A stretch of 64,000 bases of DNA, from assembly GCF_001641285.1 (NCBI RefSeq), contig NZ_CP014841.1, positions 186,001 to 250,000 of the forward strand, given 5' to 3'. Both the position numbers and the translations under genes were made by a program. The DNA is from Dyella thiooxydans. Lineage in GTDB: Bacteria > Pseudomonadota > Gammaproteobacteria > Xanthomonadales > Rhodanobacteraceae. Below the pieces are notes generated by a model, which worked only from the letters and a program-made list of their open reading frames with translations, was not told the origin of the DNA and made no database searches. Positions 52,109 to 56,559 of the stretch are shown piece by piece. Positions within the stretch are counted from its first letter, which is position 1. Every line of letters begins with the position of its first letter.

Positions 52109-52366
52109 TGCGCGTCGCCCCGATCCGCGCGGATACAACCTGTAACAGCGGTGATACACCCCGTCCCGGAAGGCGCCCGGCCCCGGGCTCCGTCAGTTCG
52201 GAGACCTCACGGCGTCCCTGGCATGCGGCATGCGCAGCGGTGCTTCATGGATGAAACAGGTGCGCGCTTTTCGTGCAGCGGTCGATGCGCGGCGGATGTC
52301 CGGCAAGTTGCTCAAATCATTGATTTTTCCTTGCGCTACCGGCGGCCCGTGAGGTCGCGCGGGACG

Positions 52367-52382
52367 TGGCACGCATGTTGCC
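52367..52382 (+). promoter_or_regulatory. Sigma-54 (-24/-12) promoter of the Fap-like locus
   Basis: tggcacgcatgttgcc matches the RpoN consensus TGGCAC-N5-TTGC, with the GG and GC elements exactly 10 bases apart. Transcription would start near 52393, about 50 bases before the first gene. An enhancer-binding protein is required; none is encoded nearby. Confidence 0.78.
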
Positions 52383-52444
52383 AAGCAGCTGGGCGACCGT
52401 AAGACAAGAAGCAGGGGGATAACGCGATGTTCCGGAGAACGATC

Positions 52445-53347
52445 ATGCGCAAGACTCTTCTCGTAACAGCGGTATGTCTCGGCCTGGGATTCACGCTCCC
52501 GGCGATGGCGGACAAGACCCAGACCGGCGGAGCCGGACCCAGTGCCCAGGCCAATTCCTCGGCAAACGCGGACGCGTATGCCACGGGCCAGGGAAGCGCC
52601 TCGGCAAACAACAGCAGTACCTCCACCTCGTCGATCGCCAGCTCGTTCAACACCAGCAAGGCGATCGCCACCAGCCGGCTCGACGGCGCGGTGACGGATA
52701 TCCACGTCCGCGACATCGGCAACGTGGCCAAGAACTTCGGTGATGCCAACGGCGGCTCGGGCGGCTACGGCGGCGACGCCTACGGCGGCAAGGGCTACGG
52801 CGGCCGGGGTGGCTCCGGTGGCGACGGCGGCAATGCCTCCTCCCGCAGCGGCCACGTCGGCGGCAGTGGAGCGGCCAGCGGCGACGCCGCCGGTTACGCC
52901 GGGGCCTGGGGTGGCGACAGCAACGGCGACAACTATGCCGATGCGCACGCTCGGTCGCGTGGTGGCGGCACCAATACCAGTACGGCTTCCGGCGGAAGCG
53001 GCGGCTGGGCCGGCGGCAGCGCGACGGGCGGCAGCAACAGCAGCACCAGCGGCTCGGCGACCGCCTCCGGCGGCAGCAGCGGTGCGTCCGATGCCACCGG
53101 TGGTGCCGGCGGCATGGGTGGTGCCGGCGCGGCCGGAACCGGCGGTTCGGCGCTTGCCGGCAACGGCGGCACGGGTGGCAACGGCGGATCGAACAGCGTC
53201 GATGCGGGCATGTTCGACATGTCCAACCACATGGACGGCGCTGCGGCAGCGGCCGCTGGCGTCACCGTGATGGCGCAGAACAGCGGCATCGGGGCCCTGG
53301 TCCAGCAAAGCGTGAATGTCCAGGCGAATCTCAACGTCGGGCCATAA
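52445..53347 (+). CDS. Glycine/serine/alanine-rich secreted protein, candidate fibre subunit
   Basis: A 300-residue secreted low-complexity protein. Signal peptide (residues 1-20, PAMA cut), an N-terminal Ser/Ala/Asn-rich segment, a short conserved-looking stretch (RLDGAVTDIHVRDIGNVAKN), about 150 residues dominated by Gly, Ser, Ala and Asn (GGSGGYGGDAYGGKGYG), and a structured tail (GVTVMAQNSGIGALVQQSVN). The final QQSVNVQANLNV is amyloid-prone in pattern. GGAG lies 7 bases before the ATG at 52445; an ATG at 52427 is also possible. Position behind a sigma-54 promoter and before a C39 peptidase and barrel suggests a secreted fibre or matrix protein. Confidence 0.72.
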   Translation: MRKTLLVTAVCLGLGFTLPAMADKTQTGGAGPSAQANSSANADAYATGQGSASANNSSTSTSSIASSFNTSKAIATSRLDGAVTDIHVRDIGNVAKNFGDANGGSGGYGGDAYGGKGYGGRGGSGGDGGNASSRSGHVGGSGAASGDAAGYAGAWGGDSNGDNYADAHARSRGGGTNTSTASGGSGGWAGGSATGGSNSSTSGSATASGGSSGASDATGGAGGMGGAGAAGTGGSALAGNGGTGGNGGSNSVDAGMFDMSNHMDGAAAAAAGVTVMAQNSGIGALVQQSVNVQANLNVGP

Positions 53348-53359
53348 GCGCAGGGAAAC

Positions 53360-53388
53360 GTCATGGGGCGCCTCGGGCGCCCCATGAC
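53360..53388 (+). terminator. Hairpin after the fibre-subunit gene (attenuator or partial terminator)
   Basis: gtcatggggcgcc-tcg-ggcgccccatgac is a perfect 13-bp stem with a 3-base loop, 13 bases after the first gene, followed by only TTT. It could reduce read-through to downstream genes or protect the 3' end of the subunit message. Confidence 0.65.
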
Positions 53389-53484
53389 TTTGTGCCGGAT
53401 GCCGGGAGCCATTGACCTGGCGGATGGCCATCGCGTGCTGCCGCGCAGTGTGGCGGTGGCGCGGAAGCGACCGGAGACAAGGCC

Positions 53485-53889
53485 ATGCGATCAGTCAGTG
53501 CGCGATATGGGCTGGTTCTGCTTGGAGTGATGTTTGCGCCGTGGAGCGTCGCAGCAGAAACCCCGGCGGCATCCGTCACATTCTCTCAGCCGTCTGCTGT
53601 ATCCGTGCGCAGCGCGGTGGGGACCCCGTCCGGACGGGTCGAGGGTCTGGGGCCGCGGGTCGATGCTGCGACGCTGGGCCGTCTCAGCGGCGGCACCGAA
53701 GTCAGCCAGGAGATGACGCTCACCGGAACGGTGGGCAACAACCAGATCGATCACGCGGTGACCGGAAGCAACGTGATCAGCTCCGGATCGTTCGATGGAG
53801 CGACCGGCCTGCCGATGGTGATCCAGAACACCGGCAACGGCGTGCTGATCCAGAACGCCACGATCATCAGCGTGAAGCTGCAGCCATGA
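53485..53889 (+). CDS. Small secreted protein of the Fap-like locus
   Basis: A 134-residue secreted protein. Signal peptide (residues 1-24, VAAE). The mature part is polar and beta-rich, with Asn/Gly turns (TGTVGNNQIDHAVTGSNVI; MVIQNTGNGVLIQNATIISV), much like short amyloid or chaperone subunits. GGAG precedes the ATG by 8 bases, and the stop overlaps the peptidase ATG. The VIQNTGNG-type motif also occurs in the protein at 54587 (VIQNSLDNQNIQ), suggesting related structural proteins. Confidence 0.7.
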   Translation: MRSVSARYGLVLLGVMFAPWSVAAETPAASVTFSQPSAVSVRSAVGTPSGRVEGLGPRVDAATLGRLSGGTEVSQEMTLTGTVGNNQIDHAVTGSNVISSGSFDGATGLPMVIQNTGNGVLIQNATIISVKLQP

Positions 53890-54575
53890 AGCGATGGTCC
53901 GTGCAGCTGATGTGGCTGCTCGCCGGTATCCCGGTGGGAGCCGTGGCGCACTCGCCGGTGGAGCTGGCAGGTGTCTCCGGCGGCGTATACACCTTGCACG
54001 TGACGAGCCTGAAAGAGGCGCGCTTCCGCAACACGATCCGGCAGAAGTACGACTTCAGCTGCGGCTCTGCGGCGGTGGCCACCCTGCTCACCTACCAGTA
54101 CGACTATCCGGTGAGCGAGCAGACCGCCTTCGCCCAGATGTACGCGCACGGCGACCAGGCGAAGATCAATCGCGAAGGGTTTTCGCTGCTCGACATCAAG
54201 CGCTTTCTCGCCGCCCACGGGTTCGACGCCGACGGCTTCGAGGTACCGCTGGAGAAGCTCCGGCAGGAGCACCTGCCGGCGATCGTGTTGATCGACGAGC
54301 GCGGCTATCACCATTTCGTGGTGATCAAGGGCCTGCGGGACGGGCGGGTGCTGGTGGGCGACCCGGCCATGGGGACGCGCTCGATACCGCTGCGGCAGTT
54401 CGAGGCGGCGTGGAAGACACACCTCGTCTTCGTGATTCACAACCGGCGCGGGCTGGCCATCTTCAACAGTCCGAAGGACTGGCGCGTGGCTCCGCTGGCG
54501 CCGCTCGGGCTGGCCATCGACCGCCGCGGGCTCGAGGGCATCGTGATGCCGCGTCGCGGGCCGGGCGACATCTGA
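53886..54575 (+). CDS. C39-family cysteine peptidase, FapD-like
   Basis: A 229-residue exported peptidase. Signal peptide (residues 1-21), then a papain-like C39 domain with nucleophile C59 in RQKYDFSCGSAAVATLL, histidine in RGYHHFVVIKG (H143) and aspartate in VLVGDPAMG (D159). This is the stand-alone form, without an ABC transporter, seen as FapD in Pseudomonas functional-amyloid operons. The ATG overlaps the stop of the previous gene (ATGA). It is expected to process the secreted subunits or gate their export. Confidence 0.8.
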   Translation: MKRWSVQLMWLLAGIPVGAVAHSPVELAGVSGGVYTLHVTSLKEARFRNTIRQKYDFSCGSAAVATLLTYQYDYPVSEQTAFAQMYAHGDQAKINREGFSLLDIKRFLAAHGFDADGFEVPLEKLRQEHLPAIVLIDERGYHHFVVIKGLRDGRVLVGDPAMGTRSIPLRQFEAAWKTHLVFVIHNRRGLAIFNSPKDWRVAPLAPLGLAIDRRGLEGIVMPRRGPGDI

Positions 54576-54586
54576 AGGAGCCTGCG

Positions 54587-55132
54587 ATGAAACGAACCAT
54601 GACGTGCCTGTGCGGTTGCCTCTGTGTCCTGGGCGGCATCGCCTTCAGTGGCCTTGCCTCGGCGCAGGATGCTTCTGTTCCCGCCGCGGGAGCGGCACTG
54701 GGGACGTTCCATGCCTGGCGGCCCGTCAGCGACCAGCGTCTCGCGGGTGTGCGCGGCGGTTTCGACGACGGCCGCGGGCTGGTGGTCTCGTTCGGCCTCG
54801 ACCGGCTGGTGTATGTCGGCGGCAACCTGGTTTCCAGCAGCAGCGTGGAGATTCCCGATATCGCGCACATCACCCGGGAGCAGGCCGAGGCGCTAGCGGC
54901 CGCGACCGGCGCGGTGAACGTGATCCAGATCGGCCCTGGCAACACGGTCGACCCGATCGTGCTGCAGCAGGCCGCAGGTCTCGGTGCAACGGTGATCCAG
55001 AACAGCCTGGACAACCAGAACATCCAGAGCCTGACCCGCCTGGATGTGACGTTGAGCGGCCTGGGGCTGCTCAACGGCGTGGACCTGCAGGGTTCGCTGC
55101 AGGCTGCCATGTCCAGTCGCGCGGGCCCGTGA
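54587..55132 (+). CDS. Secreted protein of the Fap-like locus, unknown
   Basis: A 181-residue secreted protein. Signal peptide (residues 1-27, ASAQ). The mature domain begins DQRLAGVRGGFDDGRGLVVSFGLDRLVYVGGNLV, then IPDIAHIT, and ends with an Asn/Gln-rich segment (VIQIGPGNTVDP, VIQNSLDNQNIQSL). AAGGAG precedes the ATG. It lies between the peptidase and the outer-membrane barrel. The beta-turn-rich, Q/N-containing tail fits a minor fibre component (FapE-like) or a substrate chaperone; this is inference. Confidence 0.65.
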   Translation: MKRTMTCLCGCLCVLGGIAFSGLASAQDASVPAAGAALGTFHAWRPVSDQRLAGVRGGFDDGRGLVVSFGLDRLVYVGGNLVSSSSVEIPDIAHITREQAEALAAATGAVNVIQIGPGNTVDPIVLQQAAGLGATVIQNSLDNQNIQSLTRLDVTLSGLGLLNGVDLQGSLQAAMSSRAGP

Positions 55133-55194
55133 GGAAGCCGGGCGCGAGCGACTGCCTGAAACGACCTGCCTGCCACCGACTCCGGGGAAATCCG

Positions 55195-56559
55195 ATGAAG
55201 CAGAAAGCATGTCAAGCCGGGCGCATCGTGGCCTGTGCCGGAATGATCCTGCTCGGTGGCATGGTCCGTGCGCAGGACGCACCGGCGCCCTCGGATCCGG
55301 ATCCGTTGTCTGCCGTGATCCGGAAGAACCTGGCCGAGCAGGCCGCGCGACTCGATGCCATGCGCAGCGAGCTCGCCAGGCAGGACCAGCAGATTGCCCA
55401 GTTGAAGCGCGCGCTCGCCGCACAGGAAGCCGACTACCGGGCCTTGCGGCACGCCGTGGGCGCCGACGTGCTCGACCAGCAGCGGGCAGGCAACGTGGCC
55501 GCGGCCGGACGCATGGCCACCGCGCTGCCCATGCCGGATGATGCGGCCCCGGTCCTGCAGTCGCAGGAGCGGCCCGTCGGAAAAGCCCCCGAGCGTGACC
55601 AGCGGCCACCCGAAGTAGCTCCGATCTTCGATCAGCCAGGCGTCCTGACGGCACGCGGCAAGCTCGTGGTCGAGCCGTCGTACCAGTTCGCCTATTCGTC
55701 GAACGAGCGTGTCGCGCTGATCGGTTACACGGTGATTCCCGCCGTGCTGATCGGCCTGGTCGACGCGCGGCAGGTCAAGACCACCACCCAGACCGGAGCA
55801 CTGGCGTTCCGCTATGGCGTCAACAACCGCATGGAAGTAGAGCTGCGGGTCCCGTACGTGTACGGGCACACCGACACGATCAGCCGGGAGATCTTCACCG
55901 GCAGCGCCACCGACAAGGTGTTCACTTCCCACGGCCACGGGATCGGCGATATCGAGGCCACCGCGCGCTACCAGATGAACGATGGCGGCGCCGACCGGCC
56001 CTACTACATCGGCTGGCTGCGGGTGAAATCGCGCACCGGCAAGGATCCCTTCGAAGTCACCACGGACTGCGTGAGCCGCTGCGTGCAGAACACCACGGGC
56101 ACCGGGCTTCCGCTGGAGCTGCCGCGGGGCTCGGGGTTCTACTCGGTCCAGCCCGGCCTGACCTGGCTGTTCCCGTCCGACCCGGTGGTGTTCTTCGGCA
56201 ATGTCAGCTACCTGCACAACTTCCCGCGCAGCCATGTCACGCGCACCGTCCTGGCGGGCGGCAAGGAGCCGCTCGGCACGGTGAAGATCGGCGACATCGT
56301 CGATGCCAGCGTCGGCATGGGACTGGCCCTGAACGAAAAGGCTTCCTTCAGCATCGGCTACGACATGAGCCTGGTCGGGCTGACCCGGCAGAACGGCCAG
56401 AAAGTGGCGGGAACGGCGCGCAGCGTACTGGGCACCCTGCTGGTGGGTGGTTCCTACCGCTACGACAACAAGCGCACCCTGAACTTCACGCTCGGGGTCG
56501 GGGTGACCCGCGACACGCCGGACGCCACCGTCACGGTGCGCGTGCCGATGATGTACTGA
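55195..56559 (+). CDS. Outer-membrane barrel with N-terminal coiled coil, FapF-like
   Basis: A 454-residue exported protein. Signal peptide (1-27), a coiled coil at ~38-87 (KNLAEQAARLDAMRSELARQ), a Pro-rich linker and a beta-barrel from ~residue 145 to the end (VLTARGKLVVEPSYQFAYSS ... VRVPMMY). The coiled coil plus barrel copies the plan of FapF, the pore that exports amyloid subunits. The barrel is also close to general transporter-like (Phenol_MetA_deg-type) porins. It is the last gene of the secretion locus. Confidence 0.75.
   Translation: MKQKACQAGRIVACAGMILLGGMVRAQDAPAPSDPDPLSAVIRKNLAEQAARLDAMRSELARQDQQIAQLKRALAAQEADYRALRHAVGADVLDQQRAGNVAAAGRMATALPMPDDAAPVLQSQERPVGKAPERDQRPPEVAPIFDQPGVLTARGKLVVEPSYQFAYSSNERVALIGYTVIPAVLIGLVDARQVKTTTQTGALAFRYGVNNRMEVELRVPYVYGHTDTISREIFTGSATDKVFTSHGHGIGDIEATARYQMNDGGADRPYYIGWLRVKSRTGKDPFEVTTDCVSRCVQNTTGTGLPLELPRGSGFYSVQPGLTWLFPSDPVVFFGNVSYLHNFPRSHVTRTVLAGGKEPLGTVKIGDIVDASVGMGLALNEKASFSIGYDMSLVGLTRQNGQKVAGTARSVLGTLLVGGSYRYDNKRTLNFTLGVGVTRDTPDATVTVRVPMMY

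Follow-up and report, generated by a model that had tools for sequence, protein, structure and literature searches.

What kind of secretion system is encoded where an exported C39 peptidase and an outer-membrane barrel stand beside a secreted protein rich in glycine, serine and alanine, and what does it export? Such a locus lies in a window of 64,000 nucleotides (nt) of Dyella thiooxydans DNA (contig NZ_CP014841.1, positions 186,001 to 250,000; all positions below are those of this window), in which five co-directed open reading frames (ORFs), here P1 to P5, occupy positions 52445-56559 of the + strand. A preliminary description, made from the sequence alone, had proposed a divergent export locus of the FapD/FapF kind with a glycine-rich main substrate, related to the Pseudomonas functional amyloid (Fap) operon fapABCDEF. 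Each of its five ORFs is present at the coordinates it gave, and the gene set is conserved elsewhere. Our computational analysis establishes which genes are present, how they are related and conserved, their synteny, and the motifs of leaders and promoter. Our reading, to which we assign a probability of about 0.7, is that the locus is a variant Fap-type fibre secretion operon, in which P1 would be a glycine-rich main subunit, the FapE-like proteins P2 and P4 would be matured by the peptidase P3, and a BrfA-like activator would control expression.

A conserved operon type with a FapD-like peptidase and a FapF-like barrel

P1 (52445-53347, 300 amino acids, aa) is a Gly/Ser/Ala-rich secreted protein and the putative fibre subunit. 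P2 (53485-53889, 134 aa) and P4 (54587-55132, 181 aa) are small secreted proteins with double-glycine leaders, the former carrying one Fap-type repeat and the latter being a remote FapE homologue. P3 (53886-54575, 229 aa) is an exported, FapD-like C39 peptidase, and P5 (55195-56559, 454 aa) is a FapF-like outer-membrane barrel with an N-terminal coiled coil. Signal peptides were called by eye; the intergenic gaps measure 137 nt (P1-P2), -4 nt (P2-P3), 11 nt (P3-P4) and 62 nt (P4-P5).

Peptidase_C39 (Pfam, 4.7e-21) is the sole domain of P3 above threshold, with no fused ATP-binding cassette (ABC) transporter, and the Gln-Cys-His-Asp pattern matches 79 of 79 P3 relatives, confirming the stand-alone peptidase with an intact catalytic set that had been described. 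Against NCBIfam, P3 matches FapD at 1.6e-40, which lies under the curated cut-off of that family, and FilB at 1.5e-36. Its structural model (mean predicted local distance difference test score, pLDDT, 73.7) is nearest to C39 domains, including 6mpz, which was solved with a double-glycine leader peptide. The N-terminus of P3 suggests a location in the periplasm.

P5 matches the solved FapF with a phmmer E-value of 2.4e-30 and NCBIfam FapF at 5.8e-44 (150.5 bits), and FilC at 1.1e-8; the equivalog cut-off of NCBIfam FapF, 700 bits, is reached neither by P5, nor in any of the 274 genomes scanned, nor by the canonical locus L110. In the model of P5, whose mean pLDDT is only 64.9, an N-terminal helix (residues 38-87) precedes the barrel, in agreement with the coiled coil predicted earlier, and the 18 best PDB fold matches are all FapF chains (best E 3.7e-18, template modelling score 0.77 on the target). 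Within the genus, P5 is 97% identical to the barrels of D. lutea and D. ginsengisoli. Sequence search, barrel tree and structural matches thus group P5 with FapF and not with unrelated porins, and the family matches of P3 and P5 support the proposed FapD/FapF export locus.

A scan of named genomes with P5 gave 114 confirmed candidates, of which the best 80 were kept; these loci, here called P-type, lie in Dyella, Rhodanobacter, Luteibacter, Frateuria, Fulvimonas, Burkholderia, Paraburkholderia, Variovorax and others. P2, P3, P4 and P5 are complete in 79 of the 80, the remaining one (L082) being cut by a contig end. The order P2-P3-P4 on one strand is held in 77 of the 79 complete loci, which answers the question of whether the gene order is conserved elsewhere; the barrel gene lies on the same strand as these three genes in 58 loci and on the opposite strand in 21. 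Among 40 genomes of the order, that of D. thiooxydans included, 19 carry a FapF-type barrel: 11 have the P-type operon only, 5 canonical fap only, and 3 (G005, G009 and G024) have both, as separately coexisting operons.

Typing and phylogeny used 51 loci with flanks, a subset of the barrel hits that had been selected for fetching. Best-hit typing labelled 25 of them canonical fap, 21 P-type, one both and 4 neither. A laxer first typing (any hit at E 1e-2) had called 11 of the 51 loci mixed, because the FapE and P4 profiles cross-hit, and was replaced by the best-hit labels. A barrel tree of 65 rows, built from the 51 flanked loci plus 14 named ones out of the 80, places the 25 canonical rows in a group of their own with a support of 100/99. 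A second group of 37 rows, with a support of 100/100, consists of the 21 P-type loci, the 14 named P-type loci, L154, which has both labels, and L200, which has the barrel alone. Agreement of the best-hit labels with the two clades was judged visually, and the count of 13 label changes on the tree rests on the lax labels.

The D. thiooxydans genome (4.23 Mb, one contig) has a single FapF-type barrel, no FapC match and no significant FapB match; a search of it with the FapE family gave no match, and gave none in the control either. FapA has no family match among the five locus proteins and was best-assigned in none of the 21 P-type loci; this chaperone is often missing from known Fap operons. 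Judged by gene content and barrel phylogeny, the locus is a separate conserved operon type (P1-P2-P3-P4 and a barrel), not fapABCDEF, present in Rhodanobacteraceae, Burkholderiales and other Pseudomonadota.

FapE-like proteins, their leaders and the putative glycine-rich subunit

Because single-protein Pfam and NCBIfam scans of P1, P2 and P4 were uninformative (no locus protein matched NCBIfam FapE, and neither FapB nor FapC matched P1, P2 or P4), we adopted profile-profile comparisons with 60 column-permuted nulls. P4 matched FapE with an E-value of 3.2e-8, P2 matched P4 with 1.2e-10 and P2 matched FapE with 2.9e-5, and 0/60 nulls reached the score in each case. By this comparison P4 is a remote FapE homologue. 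The N/Q-rich C-termini of P2 and P4 are related to each other, and that of P2 is conserved across genera. The preliminary description was right to call P2 and P4 small secreted proteins and overlooked both their likeness to FapE and their double-glycine leaders.

The consensus of C39 double-glycine leaders has hydrophobic residues at -12, -7 and -4 and Gly-Gly (GG) at -2/-1. In their aligned sequences, the leaders of P2 (VDAATLGRLSGG, V-D-A-A-T-L-G-R-L-S-G-G, residues 59-70, + strand 53659-53694) and P4 (VSDQRLAGVRGG, V-S-D-Q-R-L-A-G-V-R-G-G, residues 47-58, + strand 54725-54760) follow this grammar, behind a Sec-type signal peptide. The 78-row P2 alignment, which does not include L046, has L-7 in 78/78 rows and GG in 77/78 (GS in L064), with a variable -4 position (M, H, L, Y and others). 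Among the 76 P4 rows matching the pattern, V/L/I-12 occurs in 75, L-7 in 76, M/V/I/L-4 in 55, GG in 76 and R-3 in 75; three further complete P4 proteins also have RGG, which brings GG to 79/79 and R-3 to 78, L082 being truncated. RGG is likewise present in 20/20 additional distant loci where P4 was found.

Canonical FapE contains the same stretch: L/I/V-12, R-3 and G-2 are present in 18/18 proteins, position -1 is R (15) or K (3), L/M-7 occurs in 18, D-10 in 14, E-8 in 13, M-4 in 12 and S/T-11 in 11. Four more fap operons, of family f171 (L206-L209), have LRG[R/K]Y or MRGRY at the place of the leader. According to passages of one published study (PMC5557850), the active cysteine of FapD is essential, FapE or FapF is its suspected substrate, and peptides from the first ~70 residues of FapE were unseen; a passage of a 2018 review states the FapD substrate as undetermined (PMC6173800). 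We propose from the alignment that P3 cuts P2 and P4, and FapD cuts FapE, at the aligned leader. By homology, FapD of Pseudomonas would act on FapE, with the cut at its conserved RG[R/K]. Given the near-invariant leader of P2 and P4 and its alignment with the FapE leader, the question of the FapD substrate can therefore be put to a simple mutagenesis test. The linker of P5 has an LxxxR[GA][GA] motif similar to the leader, found in 64 of 81 barrels; since the motif is missing in most distant barrels, we regard cleavage of the barrel as possible rather than probable.

Variation was also seen among the substrates. In nine Burkholderiales loci (L083, L088, L089, L090, L092, L093, L096, L097 and L104), P4 measures 480-591 aa in the ORF calls owing to a long variable stretch ahead of RGG, and the putative leader peptide would thus span several hundred residues. 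L191 carries a tandem duplication of P2-P3-P4 (1924-3506 and 4788-6370) with identical C-terminal ends. Extra P2-like substrates were sought in the D. thiooxydans genome, where the sole other match had an E-value of 0.44.

P1 is composed of 25% Gly, 14% Ser and 17% Ala (56% in sum), and its central 155 residues contain 39% Gly. Residues 264-297 (+ strand 53234-53335) form a single C-terminal Fap-type repeat (repeat profile, independent E-value, i-E, 0.0037), and the same profile finds one repeat in 58 of 72 P1 proteins at i-E 0.01; FapB and FapC carry about three. In profile-profile comparisons, the P1 C-terminus matched P2 (E 1.3e-6) and P2 matched the FapB/FapC repeat (E 3.8e-4), with 0/60 nulls reaching either score, and an earlier run with the P2 C-terminus alone against this repeat gave an E-value of 1.9e-4 with 0/100 nulls. 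The comparisons of P4 with the Fap repeat and of the P1 C-terminus with P4 were both insignificant.

The P1 equivalents of two distant members, L155 and L161, have four clear repeats each, and that of L161 is matched by the FapB profile at 8.4e-7; those of L153, L154, L156, L158 and L159 have one repeat each. A profile of P-type repeats detects at least one repeat (i-E <0.01) in 11/17 FapB proteins, at the proper places, and matched 0/17 FapC proteins (i-E 0.01). A profile built from 104 canonical repeats, run on 7,862 ORFs, put P2 proteins and a single P4 in ranks 1 to 19, with a best E-value of 0.032, which is suggestive only. Because the repeat comparisons and the four-repeat proteins of L155 and L161 bridge the gap to the known subunits, P1 looks like a FapB-type protein cut to one repeat and enlarged by glycine-rich sequence. 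The earlier view of a subunit that is not FapB/FapC-like stands as far as family matches go and does not hold for the C-terminus, where P1 has one degenerate Fap-type repeat in common with P2.

An ORF equivalent to P1 lies upstream of P2 in 71 of the 79 loci, and its N- and C-termini are alike in nearly all of them. To count as an equivalent, an upstream ORF needed a length of 250 aa or more and a Gly/Ser/Ala/Asn/Thr content of 55% or more, hence composition is itself a selection rule, and start codons were picked by a score of signal peptide and ribosome site. The 8 loci without a counted P1 are six at contig ends, L046, where it is fused to P2 in the ORF call, and L058, where the ORF is merged. 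The ORF of L046 (4963-6417, 484 aa) has a P1-like start and a P2-like end, and is either a natural fusion or a sequencing error. The P1-P2 gap contains a 13-bp stem-loop (+ strand 53360-53388) without a strong T-run; stem-loops of at least 11 bp, with G-T pairs allowed, occur in this gap in 66/71 loci versus 4/213 shuffles. The stem-loop may permit an excess of P1 over the machinery, as expected of a main subunit.

Promoter control and the usual site of canonical fap

The sigma-54 (-24/-12) promoter reported earlier (TGGCACGCATGTTGC, + strand 52367-52381) was recovered with a 10/10 match of its hexamers, TGGCAC-N5-TTGC. Outside Burkholderiales, a site of at least 9/10 bases lies upstream of P1 in 49 of 55 relatives versus 1/270 random windows, and the canonical fapA of relatives has the same kind of site, with 10/10 bases in 6 of 8. 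Two enhancer-like palindromes stand further upstream. Site 1 (TGTAACAGCGGTGATACA, 18 bp, + strand 52141-52158) is the only exact match to the IUPAC pattern in the genome and scores 27.7 bits under a motif whose training set, 53 P-type promoters, included loci closely related to this one. Site 2 (+ strand 52241-52258) has one mismatch, and a second site is also found in several relatives. With one mismatch or none, the pattern occurs at two places in the genome only, both upstream of the P1 promoter, and the reversed control pattern at none.

The motif is shared with canonical fap. Trained on the 53 P-type promoters alone, motif TGTAACAncgnTGATACA scores 8/8 canonical fapA promoters above the 95% level of random windows and 5 above the 99% level. 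The motif trained on the 8 canonical promoters alone is nearly identical and scores 50/53 P-type promoters above the 95% level and 35 above the 99% level. These thresholds are conservative because random windows could overlap true promoters; an earlier enhancer count of 61/62 versus 14/310 came from training data and was not used. The motif may be general for BrfA-type control. As a separate observation, the fap operons L206-L209 have TGTTTCATCCTTGATACA-like sites of 18-22 bits, the best in ~1.3 kb, around the first fap gene found, near which a sigma-54 scan gave only 7 or 8 of 10 bases.

As stated in parts of two published studies, fap of P. fluorescens PF07 depends on RpoN and on BrfA, an activator encoded adjacently on the reverse strand (PMC9207406), and BrfA senses cyclic dimeric guanosine monophosphate (c-di-GMP) (PMC13101488). 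Within the 40-genome set of the order, a brfA match at E 1e-100 or better was obtained in 19/19 FapF-positive versus 1/21 FapF-negative members, with Fisher p-values of 3e-10 (all 40) and 5e-5 (within the family) that are optimistic because the genomes are related. In D. thiooxydans, brfA is unlinked to the P1-P5 locus. We infer that a BrfA-type activator binds the palindromes.

The neighbourhood of brfA also bears on the history of the locus. Each of the 8 relatives that carry canonical fap has a brfA homologue on the strand opposite to the fap barrel, at a distance of ~200 bp at most, and in three mapped neighbourhoods (L109, L110, L113) the fap operon is located between argD and brfA. Synteny of P-type-only genomes was followed in ten, with G002 left out. 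In nine of these ten (L218, L221-L226, L229 and L230, D. thiooxydans included), argD and brfA are adjacent and no fap gene was found between them; in the tenth (L228, G004), on a contig that begins inside P4, the fap site is occupied by the P-type genes P4 and P5, immediately next to brfA. The same argD-brfA arrangement is seen in L227 (G017). The simplest reading of this synteny is that canonical fap was lost and the P-type operon kept under the same regulator, the presumed direction of the replacement. The shared enhancer, the link to BrfA and the lack of canonical fap at its usual site had escaped the preliminary description.

Proposed mechanism, alternatives and known systems

In the mechanism that we propose, a BrfA-like enhancer-binding protein on the two palindromes would switch on the sigma-54 promoter, and the five genes would be transcribed. 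Sec would carry all five products into the periplasm, where P3 would cleave P2 and P4 after their double-glycine leaders. The cleaved FapE-like proteins would start or license export via the FapF-like P5, and P1 would be exported as the main subunit, with its C-terminal Fap-type repeat joining or docking to the fibre and its long glycine-rich part determining the character of the fibre. The P-type system would have replaced canonical fap, under the same regulator, in the ancestry of D. thiooxydans and several relatives. We infer cleavage, export and fibre formation from the homologies and motifs given above. More tentatively, and at somewhat less than even odds, the P-type loci may constitute a second, hitherto undescribed class of Fap-type systems, in which a glycine-rich polymer is held by a single amyloid-type repeat, two FapE-like starters are matured in the periplasm by a C39 peptidase at their double-glycine leaders, and canonical fap has been replaced under a c-di-GMP-responsive regulator.

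Several results weigh against this mechanism. Fourteen of the 72 P1 proteins have no repeat at i-E 0.01, and P1 has no double-glycine leader. The direct profile-profile comparison of the P1 C-terminus with the Fap repeat is insignificant, so that the link passes via P2, whose own score against the Fap repeat (21.6) exceeds the best null (20.1) by a narrow margin. Regarding the leaders, those of P2 are degenerate in many distant members (RGR, RGM, RAK, RGQ, SGR), the last glycine is replaced in FapE, and the predicted FapE cut at ~residue 40 accounts for only part of the published peptide loss up to ~70. In Burkholderiales, sigma-54 sites of at least 9/10 bases occur in 2/16 loci versus 2/76 random windows, and the enhancer motif exceeds the 95% level in 8/16 and the 99% level in 0. 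Finally, G017 has brfA and no FapF.

P1 might pass through the same machine and yet be a glycine-rich protein of the matrix or surface that is not amyloid, either silk-like or water-binding, whose repeat serves only for export or docking. A single repeat where about three are usual, undetected in the 14 P1 proteins mentioned, the high glycine content of the central part and a C-terminus without a direct significant match to the FapB/FapC repeat would fit such a protein, whereas the four-repeat subunits of two distant members and the N/Q-rich, mutually related C-termini of P2 and P4 argue against it; we consider this explanation unlikely. It seems very improbable that the locus is a plain divergent canonical fap operon with FapB and FapC diverged beyond detection. 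The FapD, FapF and remote FapE homologies and the common promoter architecture would be expected of such an operon, but the barrel forms a separate clade (support 100/100), the architecture of P1 and P2 is unlike that of FapB and FapC, and the D. thiooxydans genome gave no match to FapC, none of significance to FapB and, in a search whose control was silent too, none to FapE. The coexistence of distinct operons in G005, G009 and G024 already disfavours this explanation. Small size, double-glycine-type leaders and a C39 peptidase could also mark P2 and P4 as bacteriocin- or microcin-like peptides, and the locus as an antagonism system. However, signal peptides stand ahead of the leaders, the five genes include no ABC transporter, P4 is homologous to FapE, the C-terminus of P2 stays conserved from genus to genus instead of varying, and the barrel is of the FapF type; we give this explanation hardly any weight.

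The variant Fap-type operon that we favour shares with fapABCDEF the FapF-type coiled-coil barrel, the exported C39 peptidase, a FapE-like protein whose leader lies at the same position, substrates with repeats, the sigma-54 promoter and a BrfA-type activator with its enhancer motif. It differs in having no detected FapA, FapB or FapC, two FapE-like proteins, true GG leaders, a glycine-rich main subunit with one C-terminal repeat, a barrel clade of its own and, in 21/79 loci, a barrel gene on the opposite strand. The putative pilus system Fil of Acinetobacter (FilB, FilC) likewise has a stand-alone C39 peptidase and a related barrel; the match of P5 is far weaker to FilC than to FapF, and that of P3 slightly weaker to FilB than to FapD. 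FilB and FilC were the only Fil families to give matches. PCAT/ComA C39 exporters have the peptidase fold and the leader grammar in common with P3 and its putative substrates, whereas P3 is stand-alone with a signal-peptide-like N-terminus and those substrates carry Sec-type signals.

The 2018 review, in the parts cited here (PMC6173800), describes homologues of fapD and fapF located together in five more phyla and requires four or more fap homologues for a Fap operon. Both the export machine and the fapD/fapF pairing outside known operons are already in print. Under the rule of four, the P-type locus would fall short of a Fap operon; its mode of action is very probably that of one. Among open-licence papers, in part among their top-ranked matches only, we found neither the P-type gene set nor the FapE leader described, and no account of a Fap subunit that is glycine-rich with a single repeat. 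The P-type locus points to a Fap export machine able to handle a polymer of a very different, glycine-rich kind and to the replacement of one system by the other with the regulator unchanged, and the palindrome is a candidate DNA site for BrfA-type activators. If true, glycine-rich fibres that leave the cell through a small dedicated outer-membrane machine would be of interest for biofilm and biomaterial research.

Further arrangements of these genes were observed. In L210 (5762-7631), L211 (5397-7211) and L160 (3534-5517), a FapD-like peptidase adjoins a FapF-like barrel, and best-hit typing recognised no Fap or P-type substrate; the L210 and L211 barrels fall in neither of the two tree clades. 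L200 (6897-8093) is the second P-type barrel of its genome (G588); none of P2 to P4 was recognised in the DNA fetched around it. Two FapD/FapF systems per genome were also seen in G436, where the P-type locus L191 accompanies the third arrangement (L210), and in G386, which has a P-type and a canonical system (L190/L201).

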